Positions 5,273 through 7,022 of a stretch of 64,000 nt of DNA are shown here, one piece after another; within the stretch, counting starts at the first letter, position 1, and the number at the start of each line of letters is the position of its first letter. A model generated the notes under the pieces. That model saw only the letters and a list, made by a program, of their open reading frames with translations. It did no database searches and was not told the origin of the DNA. The DNA comes from Geomonas azotofigens. Lineage in GTDB: Bacteria > Desulfobacterota > Desulfuromonadia > Geobacterales > Geobacteraceae. Location: the NCBI RefSeq assembly GCF_018919395.1, contig NZ_JAHLME010000002.1, positions 62,001-126,000 of the forward strand. The letters run 5' to 3'. The position numbers and the translations under genes are program-made.

Positions 5273-5300
5273 TTGACAGTCATAAACGGGTTGCTAGACT
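5273..5300 (+). promoter_or_regulatory. Sigma-70 promoter of the 6S RNA gene
   Basis: A perfect TTGACA (5273-5278) and TAGACT (5295-5300) are 16 bases apart. The stretch at 5221-5262 is AT-rich, like an UP element. Transcription would begin near 5307, about 25 bases before the 6S closing stem. Confidence 0.7.
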
Positions 5301-5329
5301 TGGGTCATGCTTACGCATGTGAATGCGAG

Positions 5330-5514
5330 CGGCTCTGGAATACTCGTTGCGCATCCGCTTGGGTCCCTGACTACCTTTTTTTTCAAGATGTCCCTGGTTT
5401 CAGTCGTGGTGAGCAAGCCCTCAACAAGGCAGAGGGAAGCCTGAAGCGTCTTACCGGGGTATGTTGCGGCACAGGTCAGTAATCCAATCTTCCTCGTGGC
5501 GGTATTCCGGAGCA
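5330..5514 (+). ncRNA. ssrS: 6S RNA, regulator of the housekeeping RNA polymerase
   Basis: The closing stem GCTCTGGAATAC (5332-5343) pairs with GTATTCCGGAGC (5502-5513), giving a core of 182 nt, the usual 6S length. The apical part matches the 6S pattern closely: GGTGAGCAAGCCCTC at 5408-5422, then a loop, then GAGGGAAGCCTGAAGC. CCCTC pairs with GAGGG (5432-5436), and GGTGAG pairs with CTTACC (5450-5455). The GTCCCTGA near 5362 corresponds to the 5' strand of the central bubble that mimics an open promoter. 6S RNA binds sigma-70 holoenzyme and dampens transcription in stationary phase. Mature ends are uncertain: transcription probably begins near 5307 and the 5' end is trimmed. ygfA and zapA, its frequent neighbours elsewhere, are not here. 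Confidence 0.8.
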
Positions 5515-5521
5515 AATTAAA

Positions 5522-5690
5522 ATTGGCGTTAGTCGGGACAACGCTGAAAGCGACTTATCTCATCCGCCAGGCGGCTACGCTTGAAAAAGGAAAGCAGACC
5601 GGTACGTACTGCGGGGAGGCACCGACCACGCAGCACGGACGCGAAGCTTAACCGACGGATTGGTAGAAAGTGCCCCGATCTAACGCCAAT
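5522..5690 (+). ncRNA. Unidentified structured RNA in tandem with 6S RNA
   Basis: ATTGGCGTTAGTCGGG (5522-5537) pairs with CCCGATCTAACGCCAAT (5674-5690): 16 pairs with one bulged U. This encloses about 135 nt that can form further helices: CGCT/AGCG at 5542-5552, ATCCG (5562-5566) with CGGAT (5656-5660), and CCG-CTGCG (5599-5613) with CGCAG-CGG (5629-5638). It begins 8 bases after the 6S closing stem, has no promoter of its own that I can see, and is followed directly by a strong terminator, so it is probably released from the same transcript. It lacks the hallmarks of tmRNA, RNase P RNA, SRP RNA and GEMM riboswitches. No credible coding frame lies in it. Confidence 0.55.
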
Positions 5691-5697
5691 GCAGGGA

Positions 5698-5727
5698 AAA
5701 GGCCCATGGACCCCATGGGCCTTTTTT
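5698..5727 (+). terminator. Intrinsic terminator of the 6S/tandem RNA transcript
   Basis: GGCCCATGG (5701-5709) and CCATGGGCC (5713-5721) form a nine-pair hairpin with a three-base loop, followed by six T. Confidence 0.92.
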
Positions 5728-5829
5728 AGTGTCCGCGCCCCCGCTCTAGCACCGGGACGATAAAGGCGGACCGGGCGGATCAGGTTATTATCTAAGTAGT
5801 TATATTCTTGCGATAAAAAATGTCACACA

Positions 5830-5864: not shown

Positions 5865-5947
5865 CCACCCCCGTCATCAAAAAGACCGACGTGCCGATCA
5901 CTAATGATAGCGTTTTGCCTACTTTTTGAGCAGCTGCATTTATCGCG

Positions 5948-5978
5948 ATAAAAAATGGGCGTGACTGACGCCACGCCC
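5948..5978 (-). terminator. Intrinsic terminator reading leftward
   Basis: On the minus strand GGGCGTG and CACGCCC (5957-5963 with 5972-5978) form a hairpin followed by ATTTTTT. It would end transcription from the epimerase gene and the heat-shock remnant before it. Confidence 0.8.
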
Positions 5979-6006: not shown

Positions 6007-6183
6007 TCATTCGACATTGAGCTTCTTAACCCGGTCCGAGATCGCCTCAGTCTTTTTCAGCACCCGTCCCTCGAGGATGCCGTCCTTGAAGCTCGCCTTG
6101 GCGGTATCGGTGATGGTAGCGACCGGCAGGCGACAGGTCCTGATGAACGAGCCGTAGGAGCGCTCCAGCCGGCGGATACTTAC
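6007..6183 (-). pseudogene. 3' remnant of a small heat-shock protein (Hsp20) gene
   Basis: The minus-strand frame encodes about 58 residues matching the end of an alpha-crystallin domain: ERSYGSFIRTCRLP, then FKDGILEGRVLK, and the end KKLNVE before TGA at 6007-6009. A full Hsp20 is about 140-150 residues, so the N-terminal two-thirds is missing. The frame runs upstream into the last codons of the epimerase gene with no ATG, GTG or TTG that could start it and no ribosome site. It keeps the typical C-terminal pattern and a terminator behind it. I infer that a deletion joined the epimerase gene to the tail of hsp20. Confidence 0.75.
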
Positions 6184-7022
6184 CCTTTTAGGCCGGCCTC
6201 CAGGTTGGGGTAAAGGAGGGTGATCCCCAGTTCCTTCAGCATCTTGCCGCTATCGACGATACGCCCCTCGGAAAAATACGAGATCATGAGCGGGGTCATG
6301 AGCTGGCGCGCCTCGGCCATGGTCACCTGCCGGGGCCTCGGGAGCCCGAGCTTGTCGGCCGCGGCGTTGAAGTAGGCGGTCATGGTGCTGGGGTGGCCGT
6401 CGCTCACGTTGAAGACGGCGCCGTCCTTGCCGCGCTCCAGGGCCGCGAGGCAGATGCGGGAAAGGTCGTCGGCGTGGATCCTGTTGCTGGGGAGGCATTC
6501 CTCTTCCAGGAGAACCGGCTGCCCGGTGGTGAGCTGGGTGACCGGCAGGCGGTCGGCCGCGTAAATGGCGGTGACCCTCAGTACGACCACGGGAACCCCG
6601 CGCTCGCGCCCCCAGGCCTGCAGCAGGCGTTCGGCGTGCAGGCGCCTCTTGCCGCGCGCGGTCTGCGGATCGGGCACCGTCTCCTCGGTCACCACCTCGC
6701 TTCCCCCGCCGTAGACGCCGCTGGTGCTGATATAGACTACCTTGACGGGCTCGTCGCCAGGGGCGATGCTGGCGAGGAAGTTGCGCATCCTGGTATCTTC
6801 GTGGCCGCCACCCGGCGGCGGCGCGAGGTAGATGACCCCGGCGCCGCGGGTGGGGAGCCCCGCCAGCGTATCAGGCTCATCGAGATTCCCGCTGTGGTGG
6901 CGCACCCCTGCCAGCGGCGCCTCACCCCTGTTGAAGGTGTGGACATCAATCCCCCGCGCCAGCGCGAGTGCGGCTACCCGTCGGCCGACAGCACCGCATC
7001 CGACGATCAATAATGGTTGCAT
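6180..7022 (-). CDS. NAD-dependent epimerase/dehydratase-like protein (YeeZ type)
   Basis: A 280-residue Rossmann-fold protein of the atypical extended SDR group that includes E. coli YeeZ. The N-terminus LLIVGCGAVGRRVAALAL (residues 4-21) is the dinucleotide-binding loop. STSGVYGG near residue 100 replaces the usual catalytic SxnY pattern, and SNRIHADDLSRI and FNVSDGHPSTM are typical of the C-terminal half. The substrate is unknown; these proteins are usually annotated only as epimerases. GAAGGGAC about 8 bases upstream supports the ATG at 7022. Its 3' end touches the heat-shock remnant. Confidence 0.8.
   Translation of the reverse strand: MQPLLIVGCGAVGRRVAALALARGIDVHTFNRGEAPLAGVRHHSGNLDEPDTLAGLPTRGAGVIYLAPPPGGGHEDTRMRNFLASIAPGDEPVKVVYISTSGVYGGGSEVVTEETVPDPQTARGKRRLHAERLLQAWGRERGVPVVVLRVTAIYAADRLPVTQLTTGQPVLLEEECLPSNRIHADDLSRICLAALERGKDGAVFNVSDGHPSTMTAYFNAAADKLGLPRPRQVTMAEARQLMTPLMISYFSEGRIVDSGKMLKELGITLLYPNLEAGLKG

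Follow-up and report, generated by a model that had tools for sequence, protein, structure and literature searches.

A previously unclassified, independent family of structured RNA is present in the 64,000-nt stretch of DNA analysed here (the window). We name the window copy, which spans positions 5522-5690 of the + strand, RNA X. The independence of the family rests on its conservation, its covariation, its separate promoters and its free combination with 6S RNA. In the order to which the window belongs, sequence comparison establishes that most copies of X form the 3' half of a unit, with a divergent 6S RNA as the 5' half. We further propose that this new family of structured RNA acts in trans, by the unit mechanism described below. 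To this reading, mechanism included, we assign a probability of about 0.5; no expression, processing or binding data are available. The elements of the unit in the window are the following.

5273..5300, + strand: sigma-70-type promoter TTGACA-16-TAGACT, with TG before the second hexamer (promoter scan and position)
5307..5330, + strand: leader with a short possible hairpin, without boxA-like motif
5329..5517, + strand: divergent second 6S RNA, 6S-2 (RF00013, 48.0 bits, cut-off 46.4, model positions 1-187)
5514..5521, + strand: A-rich single-stranded linker of 8 nt, from the 6S closing stem to X (fold)
5522..5690, + strand: RNA X, new structured RNA (R2 model match plus fold and covariation)
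5522..5537, + strand: P1 closing stem, 5' strand, pairing with 5674-5690
5542..5552, + strand: P2 hairpin CGC-UGAAA-GCG (consensus fold and covariation)
5562..5566, + strand: P3 5' strand AUCCG, near-invariant, pairing with CGGAU 5656-5660
5568..5583, + strand: P4 hairpin CAGGCG...CGCUUG, then conserved AAAAAGG (alignment and covariation)
5589..5653, + strand: P5 arm of variable sequence and length; most homologues have an apical hairpin here
5656..5671, + strand: P3 3' strand, then the conserved purine-rich stretch CGGAUUGGUAGAAAGU of the joint (alignment)
5674..5690, + strand: P1 closing stem, 3' strand (fold and covariation)
5695..5727, + strand: intrinsic terminator, 15-pair hairpin with a 3-nt loop and a U-rich 3' strand

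Architecture of the unit in the window

The minimum free energy of 5522-5690 is -65 kcal/mol. Dinucleotide shuffles of the same stretch have a mean of -50.0 (sd 3.84, z -3.90), and none of 200 folds as well as the native sequence. The optimal fold closes with a 16-pair helix, formed by 5522-5537 and 5674-5690 and interrupted by a single bulged base. The consensus of the homologues is composed of P1 (16 pairs), the P2 hairpin (CGC-GAAA-GCG) and a three-way junction of P3 (AUCCG/CGGAU), P4 (CAGGCG/CGCUUG) and P5. Unpaired residues are conserved at the junction, with AAAAAGG behind P4, replaced by AAGGAGG or AAAGAGG in much of a distant class that also carries X (see below). Further conserved stretches are ACCGACGGAU around P3, followed by the purine-rich GGNANAAAG. 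A Shine-Dalgarno-like UAAGGAGG at the P4-P5 joint of some distant copies was set aside, as other members have AAAGAGG or AAAAUGG at this place.

X is unlikely to be coding, because the ORFs that cross it are short (51 and 60 aa) and because the lengths of 18 homologues, from 169 to 188 nt, differ by steps that are not multiples of three. A coding region was therefore rejected.

The predicted transcript (5307-5727) folds as separate modules: leader hairpin, 6S, 8-nt linker, X and terminator. Its start at about 5307 is inferred. The promoter scan found one promoter where 0.9 are expected in shuffles; support for the promoter comes from its position and not from the scan. Promoter-like sequences are seen by eye at the equivalent place in other loci. 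The leader hairpin is no better than chance (z only -0.59). The terminator is stable (-23.7 kcal/mol, z -4.62) and was missed by a simple terminator scan, probably with its T-run drawn into the stem. The next long ORF past X is convergent (6180-7022, - strand), so that the window offers no obvious cis target for X. Terminator-like hairpins of the minus strand are found at 5884-5978, between this ORF and the X unit.

These results agree with an earlier note on the region, made from sequence alone. It had claimed a 16-pair closing stem with one bulge, which is the optimal fold, and three inner helices, which are found as P2, P3 and P4 together with the long P5 arm. It had also placed the start of X 8 bases past the 6S core; the 6S closing stem indeed ends at 5513. 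Its claims of a strong terminator directly behind X and of no coding frame held as well.

X does not belong to a known RNA family

No Rfam 15 family covers X in a relaxed scan of the window (E<=5). Besides 6S, the only other match in the window is sot2652, on the opposite strand (5676-5759), with 13.8 bits for a cut-off of 61. Likewise, no family exceeds its gathering score on X in 20 loci scanned at E<=0.05 and in 16 loci scanned at E<=1. Sub-threshold matches overlap only the 3' end of X or the terminator: STnc390 in L079 (30.8/50 bits) and Thr_leader in L176 (31/55). Membership of a known family was thus rejected, and the absence of a match to known RNA classes, also claimed in the earlier note, held.

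6S RNA binds the sigma-70 RNA polymerase holoenzyme and templates pRNA; its architecture is a closing stem, a central bubble and a terminal stem-loop. Like 6S RNA (RF00013), X is non-coding, about 180 nt long and closed by a long stem. Unlike 6S RNA, X has the P2 hairpin and the P3-P4-P5 three-way junction within P1. In the window and in the loci scanned, matches of the RF00013 model adjoin X and never lie over it.

The literature that we searched contains no report of X; most subscription journals and supplementary files were outside its scope. The bearing passages of PMC11109978, PMC8632094 and PMC2996986 do not describe it, and the search terms are absent from PMC2825233. The motifs named in PMC11109978, for which a Geobacter genome was searched, are different ones. 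For G. bemidjiensis, PMC2996986 describes annotated sequences conserved at the nucleotide level and multicopy families, which are detailed in its supplements. An earlier unnamed listing of X, in these supplements or in a subscription paper, is not excluded.

Covariation supports the fold

A MAFFT alignment of 18 X sequences, not fitted to any structure, served as unbiased control. Double changes occur in 11/34 of its pairs, a value reached by 4/500 shuffles. Its covariation score is 0.230, compared with 0.128 for shuffles (0/500 reach the native score) and 0.04-0.09 for slid controls. For one of the five measures, further pair types, the alignment does not exceed shuffles (24 vs 24.4). Larger alignments were fitted to the model structures. 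With 83 homologues, double changes are seen in 39/48 pairs and the score is 0.350 (shuffles 0.157, slid controls 0.060-0.073). With 65 homologues that include the distant class, these values are 40/48 and 0.469 (shuffles 0.173). In the outer helix of P1, all ten pairs show changes on both sides among homologues. These analyses relied on RNAalifold and pair counts, not on R-scape, and the 83 loci of the order are not independent, since 20 come from the genus of the window (both sites counted). With these tools, the check set beforehand for the earlier note, conservation and covariation in relatives, was passed.

Distribution of X

A blastn search of 58 genomes, the window's own and relatives, found the unit in genomes of the same genus and conserved parts of X in other genera. 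A covariance model built from 18 X sequences (R1) matches 74/141 genomes of the order, in 22/29 genera (E<=0.01). The remaining 67/141 genomes give no match at this threshold; strict filters lose weak matches. An improved model, R2, was built from 83 homologues. Its sole match in the window is 5522-5690 (123.3 bits, E 5.4e-29), a copy that belongs to the training set. R2 matches 89/277 genomes of the class, 18/395 genomes drawn from the phylum (E<=0.1) and 40/63 genomes of the distant class, that of hit G467. Three of the phylum matches (L188, L189 and L190, 20-26 bits) are likely due to chance. The R2 search was confined to the phylum. A scan with an exact pattern matched 40 stretches in Geomonas, Citrifermentans, Geobacter, Geomesophilobacter, Geomobilimonas and bins; the bins are named Geobacteraceae, Desulfuromonadaceae or Deltaproteobacteria.

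The genome of the window has two X copies, that of the window and G000:C3:29205-29396. Many genomes have two copies and some have three. Such multiplicity would be expected if X, carried together with 6S, were a mobile or repeat element in decay. This explanation is all but excluded by the compensatory changes in all helices and by the conservation across classes. Moreover, blastn gave no match of X in plasmid and phage collections.

Neighbouring ORFs (open stretches in all six frames, 90 codons or longer; the 25 most common only) do not indicate a pathway: the most common one reaches just 10/44 X loci. The protein names given to them rest on a reading of the sequences alone. Ten X loci (L023, L053, L063, L069, L071, L080, L103, L104, L111 and L112) have common neighbour ORFs, which by eye we take to be a TlyA/FtsJ-type methyltransferase and a HIT-family hydrolase. 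Their site is possibly the ancestral place of the unit in the order.

In the order, X follows a divergent second 6S RNA

The 6S RNA next to X is not the main 6S of these genomes. The strongest 6S of the window's genome lies elsewhere (G000:C1:919522-919703, L214, 73.3 bits). By comparison of coordinates, the same holds for 18/19 genomes of the genus, this one included, where the strongest copy is away from X (67.7-78.6 bits) and weaker copies adjoin X (48 bits in the window's genome). The nineteenth genome, G004, has a 27-bit 6S match only.

Rfam's own 6S model gives a match at E<=0.05 in 9/20 X loci scanned, 5 of them over the cut-off. A 6S model, R3, was built from 15 divergent and 5 canonical copies. 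Ten of its 20 training sequences are 6S-2 copies at loci counted below. R3 finds 6S-2 on the 5' side of X in 66/83 loci of the order. The gap between the two RNAs is -2 to 10 nt in 64/66 tandem loci; the others have 19 nt (L082) and 192 nt (L064). In L064, a single genome, about 190 nt with inverted-repeat-like sequence (1708-1899) separate 6S-2 and X.

In a comparison of 15 loci, conservation is slightly higher for X (mean identity 70.2) than for 6S-2 (67.2), and X identity exceeds that of 6S-2 in 83/105 locus pairs. The two copies of the window's own genome reverse this trend (X 62%, 6S 67%).

X and 6S-2 are not obligate partners, because each also occurs without the other. In 17/83 loci of the order, X has no detectable 6S; rescanning 11 of these with filters off gave a best 6S score of 13.3 bits. 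Conversely, in two genomes of the same genus (G016 and G004) 6S-2 is followed, by eye, by a terminator and no X. The loci at which 6S-2 lacks X are L226, L227, L228, L229, L231 and L233. Two further loci of the genus, L095 (G015) and L108 (G008), show a promoter-like sequence and a stretch below 6S scoring upstream of X; this stretch may be a decayed 6S. Behind a third 6S of G032 lies a strongly diverged, X-like RNA (L222 624-786, +; 20.3 bits, E 1.9e-4) with a similar P1, and this stretch folds strongly (z -6.68). Its counterpart in G027 (L223 236-401, -), also behind a third 6S, has 11.9 bits and again a similar P1.

These data bear on the possibility that X is a 3' extension or extra domain of 6S-2, both forming one molecule on RNA polymerase. 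The short gaps of the tandem loci and the folding of both modules side by side are in favor of it. The loci with X and no detectable 6S, and those with 6S-2 and no X (L226, L227 and others), are against it. In most loci outside the order, X has a promoter of its own, and 6S, where found (15/33), lies 56-354 nt upstream. We thus consider an extension of 6S-2 unlikely, and X as a mere appendage of 6S was rejected. The tandem arrangement with 6S claimed in the earlier note held and is conserved in the order, with two corrections: the partner is a divergent second 6S, and X is not its appendix.

Many units of the order have a boxA-like leader

We scanned the 60 nt upstream of 6S-2 or X, together with the first 4 nt of the RNA, for the boxA-like motif TCTYTNANA. 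Of the 83 X loci of the order, 51 have it, in most cases immediately at the start of the RNA. Shuffles, which for this motif and for the promoter and T-run counts outside the order preserve base composition only, give a mean of 0.83 and a maximum of 4 (200 shuffles). The sequence at L086 and L091 is TGCTCTTTAACAATTT. Some X loci without detectable 6S have the motif as well (L077, L078, L101 and L110). The window locus lacks it, as do the nine copies of this site in the same genus that were examined (L005, L008, L009 and L012-L017); the second X copy of the window's genome has it. None of the 33 X loci examined outside the order has it. The exact boxA pattern has 8 matches in 3 genomes (2 for the backwards control), and 4/8 are leaders of 6S-2/X units. 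These counts support a boxA element, short of proof. As 16S was not found in the window's genome, the motif could not be compared with the genome's own rRNA leader.

The gammaproteobacterial boxA consensus is GYTCTTTAANA (PMC5725501). Like this antitermination signal, many leaders have NNTCTYTNANAA-type sequences a few bases upstream of 6S-2 or X; unlike the consensus, they mostly have G for A at one position. The boxA target list of PMC5725501 left out non-coding RNAs, as stated there. The boxA-like leader suggests that rrn-type antitermination may serve regulatory RNAs too; binding data are lacking.

X outside the order

The 33 X loci examined outside the order are 32 from the distant class and L179 from the window's own class. 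An extended -10 promoter, TGNTAWAAT, starts 18-38 nt before X in 28/33 of them, compared with a mean of 0.23 and a maximum of 3 in shuffles. P1 is followed in 22/33 by a run of four or more T. This is only weak support, since shuffles have a mean of 15.5 and a maximum of 20. A 6S match on the same strand is found upstream in 15/33 loci, partial in 6.

In the distant class, tRNA-Sec is frequently a neighbour. It is found over cut-off downstream of X, on the same strand and at 7-605 nt, in 26/40 genomes, and ARAGORN calls tRNA-Sec in 18/19 loci checked from these. Many loci of this class (L177-L213) show the order (6S), X, tRNA-Sec on one strand. In 3/40 genomes with X, tRNA-Sec is on another contig. 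In 10/40 no tRNA-Sec exceeds the cut-off; among them, G659 has an adjacent 44-bit match. G691 has only a 48.4-bit match of 84 nt on another contig, probably another tRNA. These tallies were made by hand from tables. G467, a single contig with a completeness rating of 100%, has X and no tRNA-Sec; X is therefore independent of selenocysteine, and an obligate link was rejected. In the window's genome, tRNA-Sec (G000:C12:37051-37144) is far from X. By coordinates, it is also far from X in ten single-contig genomes of the order (G003, G007, G009, G014, G019, G023, G028, G032, G067 and G125).

X could be a cis-acting riboswitch or attenuator, in which P1 and the U-run or terminator control a downstream gene, tRNA-Sec in the distant class. 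The complex, aptamer-like fold, the T-runs behind P1 and the downstream tRNA-Sec genes would fit. Several observations oppose it. The next long ORF of the window is convergent, and no neighbour ORF is common to more than 10/44 loci. X is kept where tRNA-Sec is missing, and tRNA-Sec is not downstream in 14/40 genomes. Many genomes have two or three copies, and the T-runs are only weakly above composition. No conserved same-strand downstream gene was found in the window or in 44 loci of the order. A cis-acting role is thus very unlikely.

The main rival to our reading makes X a stable RNA that belongs to the translation or stable-RNA regulon, binding for instance the ribosome, tRNA or a translation factor, and merely residing in stable-RNA gene neighbourhoods with 6S and tRNA-Sec. 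This remains possible. It is supported by the rRNA-type, boxA-like signal before units of the order, including X without detectable 6S, by the downstream tRNA-Sec in the distant class and by the separate promoters outside the order. Against it stand the distant-class genomes without tRNA-Sec over cut-off, including the complete G467, the distance of tRNA-Sec from X in the window's and ten other genomes of the order, and the lack of boxA-like motifs outside the order (0/33).

A possible mechanism for the 6S-2/X unit

We return to our preferred reading, that X acts in trans. We infer this from the fused unit and its terminator, from the convergent orientation of the next ORF and from the absence of a neighbour gene common to many loci. 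RNA polymerase would start at the promoter on the 5' side of 6S-2. At loci with boxA, the untranslated 400-nt transcript would be shielded from Rho by a NusB/S10 complex. The precursor would be cut in the single-stranded linker of 1-10 nt (5514..5521 is the putative processing site in the window; cleavage is inferred, without processing data), yielding 6S-2 and X in equal amounts. 6S-2 would bind the RNA polymerase holoenzyme, as 6S RNAs do. X would form a stable RNP, with a protein bound through the conserved three-way junction, and would act in the same physiological state as 6S-2. Most likely it would act on the machinery of transcription, or else on a factor for the loading or release of 6S. 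The earlier note proposed that the two RNAs are cotranscribed and processed and may have a related role; in the absence of expression data, these three points are still inferred. The interpretation given there is supported overall, and X also reaches beyond the window's order.

A bolder reading, which we consider less likely than not, is that X is an undescribed component of an RNA machine present in several classes of the phylum, a second class of transcription-apparatus RNA that is locked in the order to a specialised 6S-2. One transcript, often boxA-protected, would then give both regulators one-to-one, and polymerase and a second target would be switched together.

Comparison with known systems

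Second 6S copies are known, for example B. subtilis 6S-2 (PMC11077062), and tandem 6S genes exist in the B. cereus group (PMC7726162). Unlike this tandem of two 6S genes, the unit described here has 6S followed by a non-6S RNA, an arrangement that we did not find in the literature searched. Ms1 and CoRP are structured RNAs that bind RNA polymerase and are not 6S (PMC11077062). They are candidate models for the action of X; a relation was examined by Rfam scans alone. PMC11077062 proposes that each species has one type of abundant RNAP-associated RNA. If X binds polymerase, it would be a second type, against this proposal. The raiA-motif RNA, or ModT, is a highly conserved and complex bacterial RNA reported from Bacillota and other phyla (PMC11706538). 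X resembles it in its high conservation and complex structure; X is not tied to any family by an Rfam match.

X was perhaps overlooked because the intergenic region was already labelled 6S, an inference on our part. If our reading is true, a structured RNA conserved across classes, with many near-invariant bases, lies beside a well-studied regulatory RNA. The 6S-2/X tandem would give a direct handle on whether both act together.
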